From positions 4,030,001 through 4,094,000 of the forward strand of contig CAKKNE010000004.1 of the NCBI GenBank assembly GCA_918797485.1: a DNA stretch of 64,000 nt. Reading direction: 5' to 3'. A program made the position numbers and the translations under genes. The notes beneath the pieces are model-generated. The model had not been told where the DNA came from and ran no database searches. It was given only the letters and a program-made list of their open reading frames with translations. This document shows, piece after piece, positions 1,412-55,666 of this stretch (position 1 is the stretch's first letter; every line of letters starts with the position of its first letter). Source of the stretch: Pelagomonas calceolata (lineage: Eukaryota > Sar > Pelagophyceae > Pelagomonadales > Pelagomonadaceae).

Positions 1412-1852
1412 GCTGCTAAGCGTGCGGGCGGAGAGGACGCGCGCCGTGACGGTGTGAGGCAAGTTCCCAGAGTGTCGAGCTGTGGCACCGGACGGCAAGA
1501 CAGGGCGCAGCCGCAGCGGTGCTCTACAAGCCGTGGAGGTCTCCTAGCAGCGGCGCGGTCACACAGAGCCCTGCACTCTGCTGTGTTCGCAATGCAAAAA
1601 AAAACGCGTCATTGATAATCGCGCTAGCGTCATGTAACACACTAGAAAATCAAGCCAGCTGCTAAAAACGAGTCGTAGCGCGCTGACGCAGGTTAGCGTT
1701 GCACGAAGGACGCCCTAGAGGGACCTCATCTTGTAGACTTGCCCCATACGGGAATTACAATTGTCTCCGACCGCCGTAGCAGCAGCGCCAGCAAAGGCTC
1801 TCCGACAGCCACCAAGAGAGCAAGCCGCGCGCGATCGTACGCATCCACACTC
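1412..1852. other. Divergent promoter region, SelU / EF-hand gene
   Basis: No gene seen. It holds an A-run (about 1593-1601) and GTAACACACTAG at 1634-1645, one mismatch from the 12-mer GTAAGACACTAG found in other divergent promoters of this window. Confidence 0.5.
1634..1645 (+). promoter_or_regulatory. Variant of recurring promoter 12-mer
   Basis: GTAACACACTAG, one base from the motif seen exactly at 32772, 32789, 42332 and 62601. Lies between two divergently transcribed genes. Confidence 0.4.
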
Positions 1853-3040
1853 ATGGCGGCCGACGACGAGAAAACCGTGATAAAACAACTCCTAGACGCC
1901 GACGCCGACGGCAAGCTGACCTTCGAGGACGCGAAAGCGATCGCCGCCAAGATGGCCGCGAGCGCCCGGAAGCGAATCGTGACGTTACTCGACGAAGACG
2001 GCGACGGCGAGATCTCGTGGGCCGAGATCGAGGGCGGCGCCCGCGGCGCCTTCCACCGCTGCGAGGAGGCCGTGACGCGGGCCTGGCGCGTGCTCGAACC
2101 GCACAAGACGAAACTGCTGGCGGGCGCTGGCATCATTTCCTGCTTCCATGGCGCGAATTTCAAGTACACGATCCTGTTTGCGGGTAGCTTCCAGACGACG
2201 GCGTGGCCGCGCGTCAGCCCTGCACTCACAGCACTGGCGTCGTCGTACAAGGCCGGCAAGCGCGAGTTCGCGGCGAACGCACCACAACTGAAAGCGGCGC
2301 GTGACACCCTGCGGCGCTGCTCGCGCGAGCTCGAGGCGTGCAAAGATGATGACGCGGCGCGTGCGCGCCTTATCGCCGAGGCCGCGCACGCGGCCTTATT
2401 GCTGCGCAAGACGAGCAGTTCGTTATTCGCGGCCATCGACGGGCCCAAGTTACTGGTTGTATGCAAAGAGGCCTACCTGGGCACATTCGCCGCGTTTGCA
2501 GCGGTACTGTCCTCGACGGCTGCGAAAGTGGGAGTAGGAATCGGGCTCGGAACGAAGCTCGCAAACGCCGTCAACGCCGTCGTCGCGCCGGCCGTGGCGA
2601 AGATGTTGCGCACGTTACGCGACCGCGCCCTCGCGAACAAGGACATCCAGCAGGCACTCGAGGACATGTCCGAGGCTGCAGGCGTCGACGACGATGATGT
2701 CAGAGGATGGGTCGAGAGCGTCATCGGTCTTTGCGCTTCAGCGCTCGGCATCTATGTCGCCCACCGCCTCGACGACGTCGTCTTCCTCTACGGCGCGTGC
2801 GGCGCCGGCGCAGCGCTGGCGGTGGACAAGTGCGCGGAGCTGGGCTTCTCGTTCAAGCCGCGTACTAGACACCTCGTCGTCGGCGCGCTCGCGGGTGCAG
2901 GATTTGCCTACCAGACGACGGGCATCGGGCCCGGCCTCCCGTTCTTCGTCCGCTGGCCGCTGCTCCCGTTCCGCGCGTCGGAGGCCTGCTTGTCGTCGTT
3001 GGCCTACGGCATCCGCGCCGCCGACGCGCGGGCGGCGTGA
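1853..3040 (+). CDS. EF-hand protein with hydrophobic C-terminal region
   Basis: The 395-residue protein starts at the ATG at 1853; an upstream in-frame reading has no ATG. Two EF-hand loops are clear near the N-terminus: residues 15-26 (DADADGKLTFED, with Asp instead of Glu at position 12) and 47-58 (DEDGDGEISWAE). The remainder is Ala-rich and helical, with several hydrophobic stretches from about residue 200 on (for example around VGVGIGLGTKLANAV, LCASALGIYVAH and LVVGALAGAGFAYQT), so it is probably membrane-associated. Likely a calcium sensor tied to a membrane, possibly plastid or mitochondrial. I do not recognise the C-terminal family. Confidence 0.75.
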   Translation: MAADDEKTVIKQLLDADADGKLTFEDAKAIAAKMAASARKRIVTLLDEDGDGEISWAEIEGGARGAFHRCEEAVTRAWRVLEPHKTKLLAGAGIISCFHGANFKYTILFAGSFQTTAWPRVSPALTALASSYKAGKREFAANAPQLKAARDTLRRCSRELEACKDDDAARARLIAEAAHAALLLRKTSSSLFAAIDGPKLLVVCKEAYLGTFAAFAAVLSSTAAKVGVGIGLGTKLANAVNAVVAPAVAKMLRTLRDRALANKDIQQALEDMSEAAGVDDDDVRGWVESVIGLCASALGIYVAHRLDDVVFLYGACGAGAALAVDKCAELGFSFKPRTRHLVVGALAGAGFAYQTTGIGPGLPFFVRWPLLPFRASEACLSSLAYGIRAADARAA

Positions 3041-3270
3041 GATCACTCTCGGCCGACCGACGCGGACGACGCCGGGGCGCGCCCTGTATAGTTGTGTTTG
3101 CTGTTCATTCCGCATATTCTTTCACGGTGCTAGGACTAGTTGGTGGAGCCCCCCTGGGGGGAGAGACCGCGTAGCCATCACGCCAAAAACCCGTCACCAA
3201 GCAAAAAAGCATCACAGTCCGGAGGAGCTGCCGCTGCCTGGGCAGCCGAAAGAATGGAGCAATAGGCAGC

Positions 3271-4452
3271 ATGATGAAGCTATGGCTCTGCGCCGCCGCC
3301 GCGGCCACCGCTAATTACGCGGAACACAGCGCCGAGCGCCTCCAAACACAGCGTGACAAATGCCCCTGGACCGCAGCCATCAAAAATGACGGAGGAGGCG
3401 ACGAAATAGCTTATGAAAGAGCGCCCACGGGCCTCGCGGACATCTTTTCGTCGATGCTCACGGCCTTTTGGTACGCGACGCTCGCCCGGCGGCCGCTCGC
3501 CGTGCACTGGCCGGAGAGCATCAATACGGTCGACATTGCGAGAAGGACGCAATACAACCGGCCCCACCGCCTGAACGCGAACGAGACCTACTTCAAGAGG
3601 ACCACGGAGAACTTCAAGGCGAATCTTGAAAGGCGCATCACGACGGGCGACTGGCCTCGAGGGAGGTGGACGCTCTCGGGCAATCGCGGCATTAGTGGCT
3701 GGCTCTTCGCGAACCATAGACACGCGCTGAACGCGTCGGGCGTCGATGCGAGGGACGCCATCCATGCGGCGGGCTGCGCTTTGTACATGTTGGCGCGGCC
3801 TCATGTACAAGCGTACGAGAAGACCGTCGCGCCCTTGCTGGCGAAGCTCGAAACCGCGAAGAAGAAGGGTCCTGTCGTGTGCGTCCACGCGCGGACGGGT
3901 CTCATGCCCGAGCTGCGCCGGGTCGACAACGGCAAGCGCACGCGGCCCGACGACGAGATGCACGGGACGCGTTCATCAAGCATTACTATAGATGACGTGC
4001 GCGGCGTCGTGAATTGCGCCCAAGACGCGGAGCGGGAGGCCGGCGGCGCGGCGTCCTGGTTCATCGCCGCGGACTCGGCTTCGCTCCGGGCGGACTTCGC
4101 CGAGAAGTTCCCCGGCAAAATCCTGCTCGCGGACTGGGCGCCGGACCCCTTCGCGGCGTACCAGGTCGGCGGCGGGTCGCGCGGCGGCGGCCGGCGGCGG
4201 CCGCGCGCCCGAGCGGAGCCGGGCCAGCTGCGCGAGGCCCTGGCGCGCACCTTCGCCGAGTGGTACGCGCTGTCGCGCTGCGACCACCTCGTCGCCTCGC
4301 GGAGCGGCTTCTCGCGGACGGCCGCGGCCGTCGCGGTCGCGACGCGGAACGCGACGGTGCGCTACGTCGGGCGGCTCGACGCGCCCTGCCGGCGGGCCGA
4401 CGCCGGGTCGTCCACCGAGCGGTTGCTCGTCGAGGGCGGGGCGGGGCTCTGA
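3271..4452 (+). CDS. Secretory fucosyltransferase-like glycosyltransferase
   Basis: A 393-residue protein beginning MMKLWLCAAAAATANY, a short signal peptide or anchor. The body resembles the O-fucosyltransferase/NodZ-type GT-B superfamily: a CVHARTG motif (like the HxRxGD GDP-fucose-binding motif) near residue 210, FIAADSASLR near 265, and a C-terminal CDHLVASRSGFSRTAA segment typical of the donor-binding half. Probably acts in the Golgi on glycoproteins or polysaccharides. The exact GT family (GT23, GT37 or GT68-like) cannot be fixed by eye. An Arg/Gly-rich insertion sits near residues 295-310. Confidence 0.5.
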   Translation: MMKLWLCAAAAATANYAEHSAERLQTQRDKCPWTAAIKNDGGGDEIAYERAPTGLADIFSSMLTAFWYATLARRPLAVHWPESINTVDIARRTQYNRPHRLNANETYFKRTTENFKANLERRITTGDWPRGRWTLSGNRGISGWLFANHRHALNASGVDARDAIHAAGCALYMLARPHVQAYEKTVAPLLAKLETAKKKGPVVCVHARTGLMPELRRVDNGKRTRPDDEMHGTRSSSITIDDVRGVVNCAQDAEREAGGAASWFIAADSASLRADFAEKFPGKILLADWAPDPFAAYQVGGGSRGGGRRRPRARAEPGQLREALARTFAEWYALSRCDHLVASRSGFSRTAAAVAVATRNATVRYVGRLDAPCRRADAGSSTERLLVEGGAGL

Positions 4453-4807
4453 CGATTGTGTAATGTGGTTTGCGTGTCGATGCGTTTGCGCCCGCCGCGC
4501 GTTCTATCGGATGGAGGGGCAACCCGTGAGTTTCGTTTTGTCCACGCGATCTCCTAGTCCGGTTTGACGTGTCACACGACGGCTGCGCATCGCGCCGCAA
4601 AACCCGCGATTTGCGAGGCTCGGTTGCTGTGACCTACGCGGCGCCCTCACGGCTCACACCGATACGCTATCGCTGCGACGTCGTCGACAGCGTAAACCAC
4701 AACCTTGCTATAAAGGCTGCGGACCATCATCGCTGCTGGTGTAGCACTTTTGCAGCACTTTTGCAGCAGTAGCAACATACTTGCAGCAGCGCCGCCGACA
4801 GACAACC
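4453..4807. other. Promoter region of the RAMP4 gene
   Basis: No gene. TATAAA at 4709-4714 lies about 95 bases before the RAMP4 start codon and is a plausible TATA box. An 11-base unit AGCACTTTTGC is repeated in tandem at 4743-4753 and 4754-4764. Confidence 0.45.
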
Positions 4808-5092
4808 ATGCCCGCCCCGCGAGCGACAAGGTTGCGCTCCGACAAGCACTCGCAGAAGGTGACGAAGCGCGGCGTCGTCTCCGACAAGAAGGAGAAGAAG
4901 GGCAAGGCGCCCATCGGCCCGCTGATGATCGGGTTCTTCCTCTTCGTCGTCGTCGGGTCCTCCGTGCTGCAGATCGTCCAGATGGCGGGCATGGGCGGCA
5001 AGATCGCGCAGCAGATGGAGAACCAGCAGCCGCGCGCCGAGCCGCAGCCGCGGCCGCGCAAGAAGAAGCCGACGCCCGCGGCGGACCCCTGA
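4808..5092 (+). CDS. RAMP4/SERP1-type stress-associated ER protein
   Basis: A 94-residue tail-anchored protein. The N-terminal part (RLRSDKHSQKVTKRGVV, then a Lys-rich stretch) and the single membrane span (GPLMIGFFLFVVVGSSVLQIV, about residues 38-58) match the RAMP4/SERP1 family, small subunits that sit on the Sec61 translocon and stabilise nascent membrane proteins. The family is usually about 66 residues; here a Pro/Lys-rich tail of about 30 residues follows the span. The ATG at 4808 is used because the upstream frame has no conserved residues. Confidence 0.85.
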   Translation: MPAPRATRLRSDKHSQKVTKRGVVSDKKEKKGKAPIGPLMIGFFLFVVVGSSVLQIVQMAGMGGKIAQQMENQQPRAEPQPRPRKKKPTPAADP

Positions 5093-5112
5093 GTGACTAG
5101 TCACCGAGTAAG

Positions 5113-5694
5113 TTACGAGGAGAGGCGGGGCACAAGCATCGGGCGGACGAGGTTTTCCGCCCCGCTCGGCGCGCATACTAAGAGAGACATCTCCTTCTCC
5201 GGGTCGAAGGACTCCGTCTGTTCCAGGGTCGTCGCGTAGATGGCGTTGTCGCCCGGCGCTTCCAGAATCTGAGCGACCATGGGCCGTAGTTGCTCGATGG
5301 GCAGGTAGGAGATGTCGAGCTCGACACCATTACTACTCATCCTTGTCATCAGATTTTGCTTGTCGCCTAGAATAACAAGCGTGTCGACGGTCGGGCATTT
5401 GAACATGATGAGCCGTCGTTTATCGATCCCTTTGGCCGTGGCGTCCTCATCAAAACCGCGCAGCATCCTGTTCACGTCGGCGTCCTCCGAAAAGAGCTTG
5501 ACGATCCGCGCGAACCGATCCACGTCGTCCGGGCAGTACTTCGCCGTGACGGCGGCGAGGAGCTGAGCTTCTCTTCCTTTAAACTTTGTCAGGAGCGCGT
5601 CGACCTCGTTCAGTTTATCCGGGTCGTGGCGCGCGTAGAGTTGCTTTATCGCGGCCGCGGCGTCGACCGGCGGCTCTTTCGGCGGCTGGCACAT
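5113..5694 (-). CDS. Hypothetical protein with LYxRHxPxK-type helical motif
   Basis: A 193-residue protein with ATG at 5694. Residues 16-53 (IKQLYARHDPDKLNEVDAL, then a GREAQLLAAVTAKY segment) resemble a short helical motif common in stramenopile and other protist proteins of unknown function. The middle and C-terminal parts (for example LIMFKCPTVDTLVILGD) look like a mixed alpha/beta domain I cannot name. No signal peptide or membrane span. It converges on the RAMP4 gene, whose stop is 20 bases away. Confidence 0.65.
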   Translation of the reverse strand: MCQPPKEPPVDAAAAIKQLYARHDPDKLNEVDALLTKFKGREAQLLAAVTAKYCPDDVDRFARIVKLFSEDADVNRMLRGFDEDATAKGIDKRRLIMFKCPTVDTLVILGDKQNLMTRMSSNGVELDISYLPIEQLRPMVAQILEAPGDNAIYATTLEQTESFDPEKEMSLLVCAPSGAENLVRPMLVPRLSS

Positions 5695-29471: not shown

Positions 29472-32400
29472 TTACTTCGCCTCGTACCAGTTCCCCGCCA
29501 CCGCCGCGTCCACCACGAGATCCACGTGCAACGGGTCTAATCCAATGTGGTCGAAGGGCCGCTCCATGAGCCGCACGAGCTCCGCGAGCGCCGCGTCCGC
29601 GTGCTCGGAAGGACCCTCGAGGATGACCTCGTCGTGGATCTGGAGTAGTAATGTATACCCAAGCTCCTTCAACACAGAAGAATCACCAATAGCGAGCATG
29701 GCCATCATCACGACGTCCGCCGCGCTCCCCTGAATCGGCGTGTTGATCGCCGCGCGCGCGCCTCGACCCTGCAGCGCTCGGTTTCTCTCCTGTAGATCAG
29801 GCAACCGTCGACGTCGACCCATCAGCGTAGTAGTATAGCCCGAAGCACGGGCAGCACTTATGGTGTCCTTCTGCCACCGCTCGACCTCAGGGCGGTCGTC
29901 ATACCACGCCCGTAACATACTTTGAGCTTCTTGTTGGGAGACGCCCCAGTCCTTGGCGAGGCCGTGGGCCGTCTTGCCGTAGGCTATCGAGAAATTCAGC
30001 GTCTTGGCCCGTCGTCGTTCCGCCGCGTACTTATCTTTGACGAGCGGCTTGTCACTGTCGCCCTGGGTGCCCTTCTCGAGGAGGACCTCGCCGTTCTCTA
30101 CCGCTTGCCGCACGTGGTCGAACATGCCTACTGCGGTTCTAGAATGAAAACACCCGCCTTCCCGGAACGCCGAGAGCATACTTTCACATTTCGCGACGTG
30201 GGCTAGCAGTCGTAACTCTAGCTGTCCGTAATCAGCGACAATGAGACTACAACCTTCCTTGGCCTTGAAGGCTTTCCGTATCAAATACTGGTCCTTGTCT
30301 AGGGCCGGTTGGTTCTGTAAGTTCGGTCGCCGCGACGACAACCTTCCCGTCTCCGTGTTCAGGTTCAGGGAACAATGGACTCTAGACTGTTCATCAGCTA
30401 AGTCTTGTAAAGGTTTGATGAAGGTGTTCAACATCGTATCGATACTACCCATGCTACATAGTGCATCTAAAGCTTCACAGGCCTCCTCGCCCTCGCGACC
30501 GCCCCCGAACGCGCTGTAGGCGTCTCCCCATTTCTGTTCTTTCGGCGTACCGGCGAGATCTCGCAACACGTCCGCCGTGCACGAGGCCCAGCCGGACTGC
30601 GTGAATTTTTGGGGTACCAATCCTACCGAACGTACGGTAAGTTTGCGCTTTGACTTTTTCGGTGTAGAAGGTAGCGAGAAGGTCTTCGGCGATGCTATGG
30701 AATGTTTCGATAATTGCGCCGTGTAGGAATCATCATCAGTCAGCAACGCTAACAATTGTTCCCGCGTCGACTCCCCAGGAACTTCTAGGGAACGCGCGTG
30801 GCAGGCCGCTTGGAGCTGTTTCAGATCTAATTCTTCGTAGACCGCGTGCAGGTCTGATTTCTCAACTACTACAGGAGCCTTGTACGCCTTGCTGTCCTCG
30901 AGCAGCCGCGCCCGCAACTGGTCCTTCTTGCCCGACAGTTTCAGGGACCGGGCTCGTAGCGCGTCCTTCATCTCAGCTACCGTATTCAGAGCATCGATCT
31001 CCGCGATGGAGAGCGGTGGCGGCCCCTCATCCTGTACTGTTTCAACAATTCCCGCGTCCGCGTTTCGTAATCTCTCCACTAACTCGGCCTTCGTGCCCGT
31101 GACCTTCAGCTCCCGTCGTTGGCATTCCTCCTTGAGTAGTTTCGCCGTGGCCTTGGCGTAGAACTCCTCTTTTGTGACTAACACCTCCTCGTCTCGCTCT
31201 TCCTCCACTTCCGGAATTTCTGATGCCGGGAGGTCCACGTCGAACTCCCGCTCCCGCTCGAGGATCTCGCCGGTCTTCTGGTTCGCCGACCCGCCGAACA
31301 GCAACGTCTGGATCTGTTTTGATGAAGCGGGGTTGAAGAGCCGGCCGTCTTCGCCCATGACCGACACGCACCAGCTCCGAAACGTCTCGAGCGCGGCCTC
31401 CTTGTCCTCCTCGGCCTGCCTTTCTACGGCCTGCAAGTGGCCCGCGGCGTCGACGTGGATCCTGCGCGGAACGAGACGTGAAGACGCCATCGACGCGACT
31501 GTGTCATATCGGCCACGTCGACGCCATCGCCGCGACCGCGTCACGTTCAAGTATATTGAAAACGCTGCGTCGCGGACCCGACGGCCTCCATGTCCGTCAG
31601 CAGATTCCCGAACGGCACGAAGTACCTCTCATAGAAGTCCCACATCGTCACCGGCGTGTCACTCGCAGAGGGATTGTTCCCCATGGGCTCCCAGGCTTGT
31701 TGGGAGAGCTTCTGCTTCAATACGTCGTGCACCTCCCACGTCGACTTCGCGTCGTAGGCCGCGTAGCACACGAACGCGTCTCGTGTTAATGGGTCCGTCT
31801 GCATCTTCAGGACGTCGAGATATGATTTCTTGTCAGAGCCTTCGCCCTCGACGCGCTTCTTCCGGAAAAATTCCGGGAACAGCGTCTTCATCGAGACCTT
31901 GGCCCTCCCATCAGACAACAAATCTCGCCCCAGCGCTTCGAGCGAGTAGCCGTCGCCGCCATGCGTCCGTAACCGTGCGGAATCATACAGGCGAGCCATG
32001 TGCATCGTGTCGCCCCCGAAGCCGTGCATGTCTAGCTCCATGTTCTCGACGACGTGCCGGTCAAACCCGTAGTTGTGCCAGACTTTTTTTAGTTCGCTTG
32101 ATGCGAAGAAGTCCTTGAATTCGTTGAGGACATCCGGCACGGTCGTGTCGACGAAGAGGGCTTTACCCTTGTCAACACCGTCGTAGGAGAAGTCCGGTCC
32201 CGAGTAGACCGTGAAGCACGTAACGACACCGTTGCCCACCGGTCCCTCACGACTTAAGTCGATGCCGTCGACCTCCGTGTCCACAGCATGATATCGGTCT
32301 GAAGCTGTGGCTAGTCTATCGGCTACTGCTCGTGCTTTTGAAACGTCGTTGACAATAACAACATCGTCGTAGGCTATGGGCAATTCCGGGGCCGTTTGGA

Positions 32401-32614
32401 CCTCTTCATTAGAATAGACCGGCACGCTCTGTTGCGTTGTTTGGGCCGGCGCGACGAGCTCGGCGCGCGACGCCGCGACGCTCGCGAGTCTGGTTAGGCG
32501 TCGAGGCCGCAGCGCCGGCCGCAGCGCCCGCGCCCCGCGGCGGGCGAGGAGCAGCGCCACGATGAGTCGTTTGCCGCGCGAGCGGGCGCCTGTTTCTGCC
32601 CCCAGTCGCGCCAC
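29472..32614 (-). CDS. Organellar family-A DNA polymerase (POP type) with three SAP motifs
   Basis: Two exons (32614-31578 and 31461-29472), about 1008 residues. N-terminal 3'-5' exonuclease: HAVDTEVDGIDL (Exo I), WHNYGFDRHV (Exo II), YAAYDAKSTWEV (Exo III). Polymerase: VADYGQLELRLLAHVAK (motif A), RRRAKTLNFSIAYGKT (B) and LLLQIHDEVILEG (C). Between them lie three SAP-like helices, LLKEECQRRELKVTGTKAEL, MKDALRARSLKLSGKKDQL and LQAACHARSLEVPGE. The intron (31577-31462, 116 nt, GTCCGC...CGCAG) restores MEAVG-IHVDAAG. Plant-type POPs replicate plastid and mitochondrial DNA. No in-frame ATG exists near the 5' end; 32614 is a GTG, so an upstream exon or a non-ATG start is likely. Confidence 0.88.
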
Positions 32615-33100
32615 CTTGCTAGCTCCGGCGGCGCGCGATGCGCGTCCGCGAGCGCGGCGAGGCGATCACCGGGCCAACGCCAGGTGTACGTACGCGTCCA
32701 GGCTTTTCTCAATACTATGCGCGTGCGCGTAAACTCGGCCGCTCTTCTCCAGTTTTGTAGCTAGCGCTCCTGTAAGACACTAGCGAGACTAGTGTCTTAC
32801 CGACCGCTATCACTATTTTTCAGGCACGTGCACGCTAACAATTGGGCGTCGTTGTGAGAAGGAGGCTGCGCAGCGCACCCATCGCTGCGAATCGATAGCG
32901 CAACTGCAGCGGCGCAACGCATAGATTCCCATAGCACGAGTTTGCGACCCTTTTCAACCAGAGCTGCAGCGAGCGGCGCGCGTCAATCAAAACGCATCGT
33001 CATCGTTTCGTCGAGTCGCAATATACCACTCTTGAGCTGGACGGCGAGCGGCGCAACTCTCGAAGCACATCGACATCGGTGCTTCGACAGAGGCGCGACG
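32615..33100. other. Divergent promoter region, DNA polymerase / HTTM gene
   Basis: Holds the perfect palindrome at 32772-32800. May also contain the missing first exon of the polymerase gene; I see no convincing exon. Confidence 0.45.
32772..32800. promoter_or_regulatory. Perfect inverted repeat of promoter motif GTAAGACACTAG
   Basis: GTAAGACACTAG, five spacer bases, then CTAGTGTCTTAC: two 12-base arms that match exactly. Sits in a divergent promoter. Likely binds a dimeric transcription factor (inference); alternatively a hairpin in a leader RNA. Confidence 0.55.
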
Positions 33101-42422: not shown

Positions 42423-43763
42423 ATGGCCAAACTACAAAAAAACGCACAACTCTGGGTGCTGGTGGTCGTAGTCCTCCTCGATCTACTCGCAGTCTCCTTG
42501 GTCGTGCCGCTATTGCCAGCGCGGTATCGAGAATTAGGCGTCGGCGCGAAAGCGCTCGGATTCGCGAGCTCCGCCTACTCATTGGCGCAAATCGTCGGCG
42601 GCCTCGCACTCGGGGCGCTCTCGGACCGGTCGCTCGGCCACCGCGGCCTCTTATTGCTCTCCTTCGTCGGCGCGGCCACGGCGTATGCCATCGTTGGCTG
42701 GCCCGGCGCGACGTTCTATACGCTCGTGGGGTCGCGCGTCGTCGTGGGGCTGTGCAAGCAGACGATGACGGCGTCGACGGCGCTGGTTGCTGAGCTGACC
42801 TGTGTGGAATTCAACCAGTGAGTTAAGTATACCTGGGGCGCCGGAAATTTGATTTCCCCACAGGAACTGACCGCGCCCGGTCCCGAGCGCGCGACGTGGG
42901 TCGGGAGGATATCTTCGGCCTCCCAGGCGTCGTGGCTCGTGGGCCAATCCATAGGCGCGTATCTCAACCGGTTCGGCGACCCGCGAGTCCCGTCGGCGGT
43001 CGCGGTCGGCCTCTACGTCGTCTGTTTCGTCGTCGCGTCGGCGACGCTGCCCACAGGGCACATAACACAAAAAAAGACGATGAAGCGGCAAGATACGACG
43101 TCCGTCCTCACTGCGTCGCGCGCCGTCGCGGCCACCGCGGGCGCACGGCTCGCCGTGGCCTTCGCCATGCGAGCGGCCATGGTCACGCGGCAGGTCTATG
43201 AACTGGAAAGGTGGGACCTCTCGCGCTCCGACTACGCGAGCTTTGGGCTGTTTAAATCAATCACGGGCATCGCCGCGTCGTGGGGCCTTGCCGGCCCGCT
43301 CTCGCGGCGGTTCTGCCAGGGCTGCGGCACGGAACACCTCGTGAAGGGCGCCGCCGCTGTCGCCGTGGTCGCGGCGCTGGCCGAGGCAGCGCCGTGGCCA
43401 CGATCACCCACTGGCGTCGAGGGCATCGCAGCCAAAGCGCTCGCGGACCCGTCGCTCCTCGTCTACGCTTGTGTGATTTTTCCGCTTAAGACCGCTGCGG
43501 GGCAAGTCGCCACGATAGCGCTGCGCGCCCGTTTCACGGAGGTCGTGCCCGCATCAGATACGGCCGGCGCGCTGGCGGCGCTCGACGTGGCATCGAGCGC
43601 GATCGGCGTCGCCGCACCGATTGTCGGCGGCTTCGCCTTCGACGGCGTACCGGTTCCAAGGCAGCCTTTGGTAGCCGCAACGTTCTACGGTGCGGCTTTG
43701 TTCGCAATACTTGCGTTGTTCGCGTTCGAAAAACGACCAGCCGGGACGAAGAAGGAAGACTAA
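42423..43763 (+). CDS. Major facilitator superfamily transporter, interrupted by an introner
   Basis: A 422-residue MFS protein if 42792-42863 is removed. Exon 1 (42423-42791) has the first helices and motif A region GGLALGALSDRSLGHRGLLL; exon 2 starts at 42864 with ELTAPGPERATWVGRI and continues through the remaining helices. Unspliced reading runs into a stop within the element. Precise removal of the element plus one flanking copy restores ALVA-ELTAPGPE, as expected for an MFS loop. That donor would be GA, not GT. Substrate unknown; the protein resembles sugar/drug-type MFS pumps. Confidence 0.75.
42800..42863 (+). mobile_element. Short introner copy in the MFS gene (implied GA-AG intron)
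   Basis: A 64-base element from CTGTGTGGAATTCAACCAG to AAATTTGATTTCCCCACAG. Flanks are GAGCTGAC (42792-42799) and GAACTGAC (42864-42871), 7 of 8 identical, as in a target-site duplication. Restoring the frame needs the intron to start at the GA of the left copy. An internal GTGAGT (42818) is a good-looking donor but would give a frameshift. Confidence 0.8.
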
Positions 43764-45302: not shown

Positions 45303-46607
45303 CTACGACGACGACGGGCCCTCGCCGGGCTCAACGGACGGCTGAGGCGGCGGCGTCTCGACGGGCTTGGCCGCCGACGTAGGAGGCAAAGGCGGCGTCG
45401 CGGCCGGCTTCTTCTTGAAGAAGGACGTTAGGGTACGTTGCCCGCCCTTGGGCTTGCGCTCGATGGCCACGGGGTCGATGCCCGCCGGTGGATCGACTCT
45501 TTTGTGTTTCTTCGTGCCTCCTAAGGAGACATCCCTTTGATCCCACTTGAACAGCACCTCGTTCGGCCCGCGCGTGCCGTGCTGTCTAAAAGCCCCAGGC
45601 CACTTGTGGTGCAGCAGCTGGATCGCGTGCTGTTCCCGCTCGTCGTTTCTGACGTCGACGGCGCCGCCCGGATTGTCATAATGTTCAAATAGACATAAGA
45701 TGCGGTTCGAGCGACACACGCCACCATGTTCATGTAAGTGTTGCGCCGTATAGTCGTAGTCCTCCTTGAGCATCAGTCGCTCGTCGAATCTTAATGACGT
45801 TCTCTGGACGTCAATCACGAGGAAGTCTCCAACAATGAACAGGTGGGACTGGACCGGGGCGGCCCCGGCCGCCAAGCCCGGGTTCGCGTTCGGAAAGCAG
45901 CCCGCCAGTCGGTGGTCCGTGGCCTTCAACAGAGCATGTAAGAGGGAAGCCGCAGCGACGGGCGTGACCTCTACTTTATCGGCACCTTGCGCGTTCGCGG
46001 CCTTCAGGTCCTTCGGTTTCTGCCACGTGTCCCTGTCGTGGAATTGTTGTAAAGAATCGCCGCACCGAATGATCTCGCAGCGCTTCATGTCGTCGGACAT
46101 CTGGACGCAGCCCAGCTTTCGTTGGCGCGCCTCGTCGAGGGCCCTATTACGACTCTGGCAGAGGCCGCCGCCCTCGACCACACTACCAGAGCAGTTCGCC
46201 TCGTACTCTTCTCTTTCACCGGTGCCGACCAACCAAAGGATCTGCGCCGGGGGCAGGCCGCCCCCAATCAAGCGCGCTTCGACGGTGCGCGCGTTCGCCC
46301 AGCGGCCCTTGGAAATGATGCAGAAGAGTAGGGAGGACGCATCCACTTTATCGGTTCCCAGAATTTTAGCCACGTAGGCGTCGCCCTCCTTGCAGTTTTC
46401 TATCACCGACTCCTTGGTGACCGGTACTTTCGGCTTCTTCTGGGTCTTGGGCTTCTTCGGTTGGGGCTTGCAAATCAGCTCGGCGCTGTTGTCGTCGCTC
46501 TCCGGTGTTGGGGCGCGCTTCTTGGAGTCCGCCTCGGGCTCCGCTTTCTTGGCGCTGGTCTCGGGCGCTTCGCTGGGCTGCACGTTGGCGCTCGTCTCGG
46601 ACATCAT
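45303..46607 (-). CDS. TAGT/GREB1-like GT-A glycosyltransferase with a C-terminal PIP box (possible DNA-base modification enzyme)
   Basis: A 434-residue protein with ATG at 46607. After a basic/acidic disordered N-terminus (about 1-75), residues 75-380 show a GT-A pattern: GGLCQSRNRALDEARQRKLG, then VQMSDDMKRC (DxD-like metal site), then SHLFIVGDFLVIDVQ, LRFDERLMLKEDYDYTAQHL and FEHYDNPGGAVDVRN. This order resembles the TET/JBP-associated glycosyltransferases (TAGT) and the GREB1 C-terminal domain, predicted to sugar-modify oxidised bases in DNA. The tail has QRTLTSFF followed by KKK, an ideal PCNA-interacting (PIP) box. No signal peptide. Together these suggest a nuclear, replication-coupled enzyme. 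The family call is from pattern and is uncertain; a non-DNA substrate cannot be excluded. Confidence 0.5.
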   Translation of the reverse strand: MMSETSANVQPSEAPETSAKKAEPEADSKKRAPTPESDDNSAELICKPQPKKPKTQKKPKVPVTKESVIENCKEGDAYVAKILGTDKVDASSLLFCIISKGRWANARTVEARLIGGGLPPAQILWLVGTGEREEYEANCSGSVVEGGGLCQSRNRALDEARQRKLGCVQMSDDMKRCEIIRCGDSLQQFHDRDTWQKPKDLKAANAQGADKVEVTPVAAASLLHALLKATDHRLAGCFPNANPGLAAGAAPVQSHLFIVGDFLVIDVQRTSLRFDERLMLKEDYDYTAQHLHEHGGVCRSNRILCLFEHYDNPGGAVDVRNDEREQHAIQLLHHKWPGAFRQHGTRGPNEVLFKWDQRDVSLGGTKKHKRVDPPAGIDPVAIERKPKGGQRTLTSFFKKKPAATPPLPPTSAAKPVETPPPQPSVEPGEGPSSS

Positions 46608-46857
46608 TGGTGCGCGCTGCCTGAGGGTTTCGGCTTGTCTGGGCGGTTTTGGGGGCGCAAACGATGCGGTTTTCGACCGGCGCGCGCGAGTGTCAGAGTG
46701 GAGGAGCTCCTGTACAGCGTCTGGCAGTTCCCGGCTCAAAAACAAGGGAGCTAGGCGCCTGATATCAAAAGCGCTCCGAGTTTGAACTAGCGCATATAGA
46801 GATACTAGCGACGCGACCTAATAAAATCGACACGGCCTAAAATACACAATAACTCCA

Positions 46858-53655: not shown

Positions 53656-55197
53656 CTACAAATTACTAGTGGAAAGGCTATCCTGGGAGTCGCTCCGTCG
53701 CCGCAGCTCCTTGTCCAGCTGCTTGTGCGCCTGGCCGAAGGCCCGATCTAATCGCCCCACGAAGTCCGCGAGCTCTCGACCAGAAGCACCGAGGGCGCAG
53801 GCCGCCGTGAAGTAGGGTTCTGGGTAATCGTCGCACGACGCGCCCCACCCAACAAAGGAATAGCCGGCGATGTCCTTCGCGTCCGTTTCCCGGGCGACGA
53901 CGCGTGTCCCGGAAACGCACCGCGTAAACAGCATCGAGCCGAACTTCGTGCACCGGTCCCGCACGGCATTATCATCGTCCTTCACGCGTCTAGCTTTCGC
54001 CGCCAACGCCGACAGCGTCACACCGAACGAGATGCGGTTGTGCGGCGTGTCCAGAAGACGCTCGCCGTGCTTCCGCGCGACGTCTTCTAGTGACGAACGG
54101 AAGCCCTCCAATTGCGCTTCCCGCTCATCCAGTAAAGATCGCCAGCCGTTGCGCCCTAGACCAAGTAAAGTTGCTAATAAATCAACACAGGGCGTCGCCG
54201 ACGCGCGGCCGGGGTAGGCCCTCCCAATCGTATCGATTATATCAGCATCGTTCCCGGCGACGACGGCGCCGCCGACGGGCACCAGAAAATTTTTATCGGT
54301 GGAGGCCACGACGACGTCCACCCTTCCGACGCGCGATGCTCGCGCGATTTGGGCACAAGTCTTCGAGCACTGCACGCCATAGGCGTTGTTCACGACATGT
54401 CTCACATTGTGCTTCAGGCAGAGGCGCGCCACGCCGACGACGTCGTCCGGCGCGCGCGGCGCGAAGCACGAGGTCGTCGTCACGATGCAAAAAACATCTT
54501 CATTATTTTGCAGCCTCCGCTCAAGTGCTTCGAGGTTCGTGCGCAGCTCATCAGAAGATGGAGGTGGTTGAGTTTTTCGGTTGTGGATCGGGGCCGACCC
54601 ATCGGTACGGGGTGCGACGACCTCCGCCTCCAGACCGGCTAACAGTATACCTTTAAAGCACGACTTCTGGTCGACGCGGCACCAGAGCGCTTTCGACTTC
54701 TTGGCTCGTTCCGTCGGCGGGAGCTGGTTCCGCAGCGCGAGGAGGCATAACGATAGCGATAGGCCCGTCGCGCAGGGCAAGACGACAGCTCTCCGAAACT
54801 CGACCAGGCCCGCCTCTTTCAGCGCGTCCAGCGCTAATGCATTTGCGAGTTTAGCTAGTAACGAGCTACCGGCCGCCTTGGGCTGCACCGCCGCCACGTC
54901 GCCGGAGCGACCGACGCCGTGCGCCAGCCCGAAGTGCCTCCTCCTTACAACACCGCTGAGGACGCGCGCCTCCCGCTCGCCGACGCCGACGTTCTCCTCG
55001 AAGTTGTTCGAGTCCATCGCGGCGCAGTCCCGCAGCAGCTTCTCGACCGCGTCGTCGGACCAGCCTTTCGTGGGGAGGCGGCGCTGGTCGACGAGCTCCT
55101 GGACGGGCCGGCGGTTCGTCTTTTCCACTTGTCTTGCTTGGTCGACGACGTGCGCGTCGACGAGCTTCGCGGCGCTGTCGTAGAAGGCGGCGTCCAT
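53656..55197 (-). CDS. SEPSECS: O-phosphoseryl-tRNA(Sec) selenium transferase (SepSecS)
   Basis: A 513-residue PLP enzyme, ATG at 55197. It follows human SepSecS closely: LPTKGWSDDAVEKLLRDCAA, MDSNNFEENVGVGEREARV, HGVGRSGDVAAVQPKAAGSS, TTTSCFAPRAPDDVV, VVNNAYGVQCSKTC and ASTDKNFLVPVGGAVVAG, whose Lys is the PLP-binding residue. It converts phosphoseryl-tRNA(Sec) to Sec-tRNA(Sec) with selenophosphate. This proves the host decodes UGA as Sec and directly supports the SelU reading at the other end of the window. Length fits the family (about 500). Confidence 0.97.
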   Translation of the reverse strand: MDAAFYDSAAKLVDAHVVDQARQVEKTNRRPVQELVDQRRLPTKGWSDDAVEKLLRDCAAMDSNNFEENVGVGEREARVLSGVVRRRHFGLAHGVGRSGDVAAVQPKAAGSSLLAKLANALALDALKEAGLVEFRRAVVLPCATGLSLSLCLLALRNQLPPTERAKKSKALWCRVDQKSCFKGILLAGLEAEVVAPRTDGSAPIHNRKTQPPPSSDELRTNLEALERRLQNNEDVFCIVTTTSCFAPRAPDDVVGVARLCLKHNVRHVVNNAYGVQCSKTCAQIARASRVGRVDVVVASTDKNFLVPVGGAVVAGNDADIIDTIGRAYPGRASATPCVDLLATLLGLGRNGWRSLLDEREAQLEGFRSSLEDVARKHGERLLDTPHNRISFGVTLSALAAKARRVKDDDNAVRDRCTKFGSMLFTRCVSGTRVVARETDAKDIAGYSFVGWGASCDDYPEPYFTAACALGASGRELADFVGRLDRAFGQAHKQLDKELRRRSDSQDSLSTSNL

Positions 55198-55666
55198 CGT
55201 TTTTTTGTGTCTTTCAGAGAGGCCGCTCTCTTGGTCGGCGCAGATCTCGGCGCAGAGGTGCAGAGGCGGGTCTTTCTGACCTCGAATGCCTCGAGGGTGT
55301 CCGGGATGAGTCACACACGACGCCTGACTAGCAGCGGTGCAATATTACGCTGGTAAATCCCCGATGATGCGCGGACGCGTCGATGCGGTCTAGTATGTCA
55401 TTACTACACTAGATCGAAAAAATAAACCGGCTGCGCGCGGCCTTCGCGCGAAGCCGTGCGACGTCACCTGTCGAGGTCGTTGCCGCAGAGCACTCCCACC
55501 ACTGCGACCAGGCCCGCCGGCTTCAGCTCCAGGCGCCAAGACATAAAGTGGTCACCCCTCTTTGCCATCGAGTTTGGGCTGCGCACGACGCACCGGCGCA
55601 GCGCGAAATCGGCGCAGCAAACAGTGCGGCCACCGGACCCCGCCGCCGCGACACCCTGCAAAAAAA
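55198..55666. other. Divergent promoter region, SepSecS / LAMTOR3-like
   Basis: TACACTAG at 55405-55412 matches the promoter core; with TCTAGT at about 55389-55394 it makes a loose inverted repeat (TCTAGT...ACTAGA). No gene seen. Confidence 0.45.

Follow-up and report, generated by a model that had tools for sequence, protein, structure and literature searches.

Phage DNA can contain bases that carry a sugar, and the known eukaryotic example is base J. The glycosyltransferase that makes base J is not the same as the enzyme considered here, a predicted protein of the TAGT family encoded in a 64,000-nucleotide stretch of the genome of the pelagophyte alga Pelagomonas calceolata (contig CAKKNE010000004.1, positions 4,030,001-4,094,000), hereafter the window. 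Phages of the T6 type make hydroxymethylcytosine (hmC) at the nucleotide stage, without a TET enzyme. Their beta-glucosyl-HMC-alpha-glucosyltransferase, the TAGT proper, shares both family and GT-A fold with the algal protein and acts on DNA (PMC13216743, PMC13390438), where it adds a second sugar to glucosyl-hmC (PMC13216743); its comparison with the algal protein was made via a PHROG profile only. In kinetoplastids, the sugar of base J is placed on the DNA base after oxidation by TET/JBP enzymes (PMC12730594). The T4 alpha-glucosyltransferase pulls down the T4 clamp gp45, but its fold is of the GT-B type, unrelated to the algal GT-A core, and its clamp is a different one (PMC13216743). Among eukaryotic proteins, GREB1 also possesses a TAGT domain, fused to a superfamily II (SFII) helicase (PMC6163654), a module which the algal protein lacks. 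Finally, DNMT1, FEN1, UNG2 and MSH6 resemble the algal protein in having a PCNA-interacting peptide (PIP) box located in a disordered region (PMC6881253), but their catalytic domains are unrelated.

With respect to these systems, the algal protein is rather probably a nuclear DNA-base glycosyltransferase from the TAGT family, in its TET-linked branch, which would be tethered by PCNA at the replication clamp. The gene occurs on the minus strand, where positions 45303-46607 give 434 residues and a stop, beginning with MMSETSA; the initial annotation had located the frame properly and left its strand unstated. The plus strand over the same positions contains 10 stops, and the stop-to-stop frame covers 45303-46817, its upstream open part being devoid of any further Met before the MM pair. 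The protein consists of about 95 charged-rich residues, a folded core and a basic, proline-rich tail of about 90 residues, in which the following features were distinguished:

45303..46607, minus strand: whole gene, a single open reading frame of 434 residues (translation), with a basic N-terminal stretch, a GT-A core and a tail bearing the PIP box
45573..46319, minus strand: TAGT-type GT-A core, about residues 97-345 (Pfam match over 97-315, PHROG match over 95-341)
46089..46097, minus strand: S171-D172-D173, the expected metal/nucleotide-sugar site (D172 and D173 invariant in 76 aligned rows)
45753..45785, minus strand: D275 and K281-E282-D283-Y284-D285 (LKEDYD block), the expected catalytic-base motif (76-row alignment)
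45417..45440, minus strand: PIP box QRTLTSFF, residues 390-397, in a basic disordered tail (motif scan and shuffles)
46428..46457, minus strand: basic cluster KKPKTQKKPK, residues 51-60 (scan for K[KR].[KR], found at residues 51 and 57)

The core is recognized by the PF20691 (TAGT) profile over nearly its full length (E=1.1e-5, 25.9 bits, profile positions 5-205 of 205) and by phrog_842, the beta-glucosyl-HMC-alpha-glucosyltransferase profile (E=7.7e-4), and no Pfam family other than TAGT matches the protein at E<=10. A structure model predicted from the 76-row alignment displays a local confidence (pLDDT) that exceeds 90 over most of the core and is lower in an insertion around residues 181-210, and shows no second folded domain across the 434 residues. 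Among viral structures, the best match to this model is a TAGT-domain phage protein (E=6e-19, root-mean-square deviation 2.6), with a template-modelling score (TM) of 0.88 when normalized by target length (0.51 by query length). The best match in the PDB, AvpGT, described as a nucleoside-specific glucosyltransferase, is weak (E=1.2e-5, TM 0.47 by target length, root-mean-square deviation 8.3); PDB sequence searches with the whole protein, its C-terminal 65 residues and the 76-row profile gave no useful match, nor did the NCBIfam search with P0001 give any. Profile, fold and alignment together establish the protein, at the level of sequence and model, as a TAGT/GT-A enzyme in the wide sense, in agreement with the initial annotation, whose four quoted core strings, including SRNRALDEA, VQMSDDMKRC and HYDNPGG, are all present in the translation; nothing in the profile and fold searches points to an unrelated secretory glycosyltransferase family. 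The accompanying term "GREB1-like" has to be abandoned, since the protein has no GREB1 family match at E<=10 and no SFII helicase fusion and resembles the stand-alone phage TAGTs; this likeness was ruled out on architecture, GREB1 having been compared by description and not by sequence.

The algal protein and its 75 aligned relatives have fourteen invariant columns in common, namely S99, R102, Y135, N154, D172, D173, G236, D275, K281, E282, D283, Y284, G315 and E325, and L280 and D285 are conserved in at least 90% of the 76 rows. With these 14 residues kept, the algal glycosyltransferase looks active. Residue 171, a Ser in the algal protein, is an Asp in 93% of the first 74 rows aligned, mostly from the non-TET branch, where Ser at this first acidic position is rare. 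A rough pattern finds the S-D-D form in 49 of 61 TET-bearing loci, with Asp in 6, Ala in 2 and 4 left unmatched. The Ser is therefore a trait of the TET-linked branch and not a sign of decay.

Relatives were sought in viral, phage, plasmid and bacterial collections, in which the nearest ones found are phage proteins, the best being 36-41% identical; eukaryotic relatives, lying outside these collections, may be closer. Scans of viral contigs with alignments, from which the best 80 of 328 and the best 80 of 394 candidates were kept, yielded relatives down to E=1e-43 (E-values that hold for the candidate stretches only), and a scan with the single algal sequence found the viral-contig locus L001. 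The phage collection gave one weak match to the algal protein, Javan291 (E=0.02), the plasmid search with residues 91-434 gave no match, and the bacterial genome scan gave 9 loci, six of which entered a 105-row tree, all in the non-TET branch, the other 3 being dropped by the sampling rule. Relatives also occur in named phages, among them the Arthrobacter phages Prairie, Klevey, Bolt007 and Lilmac1015. In the 105-row tree, the algal protein groups with 51 TET-linked and 6 unlinked rows (support 100/100), the other side comprising 47 rows with no TET in their fetched flanks, and a second tree of 49 rows gives the same split with the same support (100/100). From these trees of aligned sequences, the algal protein belongs on the TET-linked side of the family, to which it is 23-41% identical in the 76-row alignment. 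Its place beside one particular phage branch received moderate support (91/84 and 83/88 in the two trees), and a tree holding all phage rows of the TET-linked side together has an approximately unbiased p-value of 0.27; algal nesting among phage rows is not shown by these values, which favour no direction of transfer. TET-linked phage TAGTs such as those of L093, L005, L125 and Prairie (gene 65, locus L157) possess the same core and invariant residues, but they are shorter (227-289 residues, with one frame of 392, as compared to 434), and the aligned phage rows are devoid of the long basic N-terminus and of the PIP-bearing tail.

The association of these relatives with TET/JBP genes is very strong and supports the link to TET/JBP put forward in the initial annotation, as a Tet_JBP domain occurs in 39 of the 43 records of the closest phage relatives, 38 of them above the curated cut-off. 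Among the first 20 records it occurred in five, corresponding to five of the six best-scoring relatives then known, with L007 as the exception. No TET/JBP was found in the non-TET branch, either in the fetched flanks of its 47 tree rows or in 14 whole records, which is weak evidence since numerous viral contigs are incomplete. A local profile detected a TET in 50 distinct TAGT loci, always within 2 kb of the TAGT; in 21 of them the two genes share a strand and overlap or lie within 10 bases of each other, and in 4 they are on opposite strands. ParB_N domains accompany the relatives in 19 of 37 phage records (16 above cut-off). Taken together with the core, this setting supports a likely DNA-modifying role, as had been suggested. 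In contrast to the phage genes, the algal gene has neither TET/JBP nor ParB_N as a neighbour among the 30 window frames scanned, a sample that is uninformative for the whole genome.

Several phage operons display additional enzymes. In Arthrobacter phage Prairie, positions 1834-5334 of locus L157 contain, in order, a ParB gene, a short frame, a TET-like oxidoreductase, the TAGT and a PIG-L deacetylase; the ParB_N (23.3 bits), Tet_JBP (25.5) and TAGT (24.4) matches lie under their cut-offs and the PIG-L match above, and the gene order suggests a glucosamine-bearing base in this phage. As a general clue to the sugar, the PIG-L deacetylase was ruled out, being found in none of 37 records. L093 contains, over about 1.5-7 kb, an operon of TET and TAGT with ParB proteins, a radical SAM/SPASM enzyme and a cupin, and L094 a similar TET and TAGT operon with ParB over about 3.4-7 kb, its radical SAM/SPASM enzyme and cupin being recognized by eye only. 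Both operons seem to be pointing to a further elaborated base.

The second distinctive trait of the algal protein resides in its tail, where QRTLTSFF occupies residues 390-397 and is followed by KKK, as the initial annotation had reported. PCNA ligands usually exhibit a Gln at position 1, an aliphatic residue at position 4 and aromatic residues at positions 7 and 8, mostly within disordered regions, and positively charged flanks raise their affinity (PMC6881253). All these traits occur here: the flanking ERKPKGG and KKKPAAT carry a net charge of +5 (own count), and pLDDT falls below 50 over residues 376-403, the region holding the motif. The strict pattern Q..[ILM]..[FY][FY] appears by chance in 0.31% of shuffles of the whole protein and 0.019% of shuffles of residues 346-434 (200,000 shuffles per test), and QRTLTSFF is its single occurrence in the 115,276 six-frame residues of the window. 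QRTLTSFF is accordingly regarded as a good candidate PCNA-binding site, which is not proof of binding. At the other end of the protein, KKPKTQKKPK could be a nuclear localisation signal, as judged by eye, and no hydrophobic leader is visible by eye in the 434 residues (no signal-peptide program being used), in line with the absence of a signal peptide claimed previously. Among the papers listed, the literature search retrieved no glycosyltransferase among PCNA clients, tables of such clients lying outside its scope, nor any description of a TAGT that bears a clamp or PCNA motif, most subscription papers being likewise outside it; algal TAGTs may therefore have been mentioned before.

A comparable motif, devoted to another clamp, occurs in some of the phage relatives. 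The consensus recognized by the bacterial clamp is QL[S/D]LF, more usually in a C-terminal place, as in E. coli Pol II, which has QLGLF at its extreme C-terminus (PMC3716654). Fifteen distinct phage TAGTs forming one tree branch end exactly in Q-x-[STG]-L-F (L001, L004, L113, L123, L124, L125, L131, L132, L136, L139, L141, L145, L147, L150 and L153), and all 15 loci contain a TET. Both trees put this branch, along with sister rows devoid of the motif, beside the algal protein with moderate support; in the 105-row tree, 15 of the 26 phage rows there bear the motif. Their mean pairwise identity is 70% (range 53-98%), and position 2 of the motif is occupied by five different residues, with Q, L and F unchanged. 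Since further columns among the 30 C-terminal residues of these TAGTs are likewise unchanged, the conservation of the motif in the TAGTs alone partly reflects descent. A stronger argument is provided by three further kinds of protein with the same ending:

L001:4466-4921, as an example of six loci: protein of 151 residues ending in QTKLF (tail reading)
L125:4118-4885: second TAGT ending in QINLF (Pfam E=5.2e-9)
L131:5767-6438: protein with a partial C5-methylase match (profile positions 1-78 of 324) ending in QIELF

Among frames of at least 60 residues, 23 of 353 end in Q..[LM]F in the 15 loci, compared to 3 of 4258 in the other loci. Some phage TET-linked enzymes thus appear to use the bacterial clamp via a C-terminal motif of their own.

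The alternative that survives best retains the DNA-base glycosyltransferase and considers its PIP box as fortuitous or devoted to repair, without any coupling to the fork. The closeness of the algal motif to those of the repair proteins UNG2 (variant QKTLYSFF) and MSH6 (QSTLYSFF) gives some substance to this explanation, and canonical PIP motifs can be false positives (PMC6881253). The low shuffle odds (0.0002-0.003), the strict form of the motif, its disordered tail and basic flanks, the clamp motifs of some phage relatives and the precedent of the T4 enzyme all speak in the opposite sense, and this explanation is held to be unlikely.

It is still less probable that the TAGT core has been recruited, as a nuclear protein glycosyltransferase, to chromatin or PCNA-bound replication proteins instead of DNA. 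GT-A enzymes readily switch acceptors, GREB1 is said to have a protein O-GlcNAc activity, and the branch leading to the algal protein is long in both trees (1.21 and 1.15 changes per column). Nevertheless, the algal protein keeps the 14 columns that are invariant over 76 rows, and its closest relatives sit with TET/JBP genes and, in about half of the records, with ParB genes.

An antiviral or transposon-silencing device, which would mark foreign DNA at the clamp as it enters or replicates, is a slightly more remote alternative. Related phage systems serve in the conflict between phages and their hosts (PMC13216743), and TET/JBP genes are carried by fungal transposons (PMC12730594). However, this explanation is without direct evidence, and no known defence domain appears in the Pfam matches (E<=1e-4) of the 30 window frames, padloc not having been searched.

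The genomic setting bears on the weakest of the alternatives. The neighbours of the gene in the window are of eukaryotic type, and comprise genes for SepSecS, the Rab3GAP catalytic subunit, a trehalose-phosphate synthase/phosphatase, a Dus protein, an M32 peptidase and an alpha-galactosidase. The Dus gene is divided over two frames with an intron-like stretch between them, and the M32 peptidase gene also extends over two frames. The guanine plus cytosine content at third codon positions is 0.77 in the TAGT gene and 0.61-0.80 in seven neighbours; such a host-like composition, together with the eukaryotic neighbours, indicates that the gene is not part of a stray phage contig. That the gene was acquired recently from a phage or bacterium and has no function, or that it contaminates the assembly, is thus very improbable, and contamination as such is ruled out by neighbours and codon composition, because to the phage nature of the nearest relatives found (in collections that were non-eukaryotic) are opposed the eukaryotic setting, the intact frame with its conserved residues, the N- and C-terminal tails absent from the aligned phage rows, and a motif for the eukaryotic clamp that would be unexpected in a phage gene.

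Other elements of the window deserve mention. The SepSecS gene (53659-55344, minus strand) indicates that the organism probably makes selenocysteine. A family A DNA polymerase with SAP domains (29475-32665, minus strand), with a 3'-5' exonuclease domain in an adjoining and overlapping frame, is perhaps an organelle polymerase. Introns of different genes (at 42845 on the plus strand, 47179 on the minus strand and, by translation, about 49.8 kb on the plus strand) share the 3' end GGGGCGCC(G/C)GAAATTTGATTTCC(C/A)CACAG or a variant; this common end is introner-like and is a possible clue to the organism.

Some observations weigh against a PCNA-tethered DNA-base glycosyltransferase. The PF20691 score of 25.9 is lower than the curated cut-off of 27.5; the TET-adjacent phage relatives fall on both sides of this value (L113 33.6, L136 31.7, L001 25.9, L157 24.4, L005 17.8, L006 14.7), and one of them, L011, has no PF20691 match at E<=0.1. 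Even a strict PIP box can be fortuitous, and this one is known from a single eukaryotic copy. The clamp motif of the phage TAGTs occurs in one branch only, and is missing from 11 of the 26 phage rows that group beside the algal protein. In addition, the in vivo dominance of the T4 alpha-glucosyltransferase owes more to expression than to its contact with the clamp (PMC13216743), so that a tether need not matter much. A C5-methylase match occurs in 1 of the 43 closest phage records, which therefore do not point to one oxidised base in the phages; given the rarity of these methylases, thymine (the base J case) and 5-methylcytosine are equally open candidates for the oxidation. Finally, the data on the organism, which are those of the window, show neither a TET/JBP nor a DNA methylase or a modified base; in Aureococcus, DNMT5-type and other cytosine methylases have been reported (PMC3145265, PMC12700378).

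For the favoured nuclear, PCNA-tethered enzyme, DNA as the substrate, a TET partner, PCNA binding, nuclear location and replication coupling are all properties that we infer. A TET/JBP dioxygenase, none of which was seen in the window, would make a hydroxymethyl-pyrimidine in DNA, and the GT-A core would then move a sugar from a nucleotide sugar onto the hydroxyl of the modified base. The C-terminal PIP box would bind PCNA and keep the enzyme at DNA that has just been copied or repaired, allowing the sugar mark to be laid down or maintained with replication. The tethering of DNA glycosyltransferases to clamps is suggested by three lines taken together: the published T4 precedent, the new, motif-based case of the TET-linked phages and the algal candidate. 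A bolder and rather doubtful extension is that clamp-tethered base glycosylation represents one old strategy, the tail having been re-tuned from a beta-clamp peptide to the PCNA peptide QRTLTSFF upon entry into eukaryotes, to give a replication-coupled sugar mark in the nucleus.

If the favoured reading is true, a nuclear TAGT equipped with a PCNA tag would represent, besides base J, a second eukaryotic route to sugar-bearing DNA bases, tied to replication as DNMT1 is for methylation. The clamp motif of the phages also suggests that attachment to a sliding clamp may be a feature common to DNA hypermodification systems.
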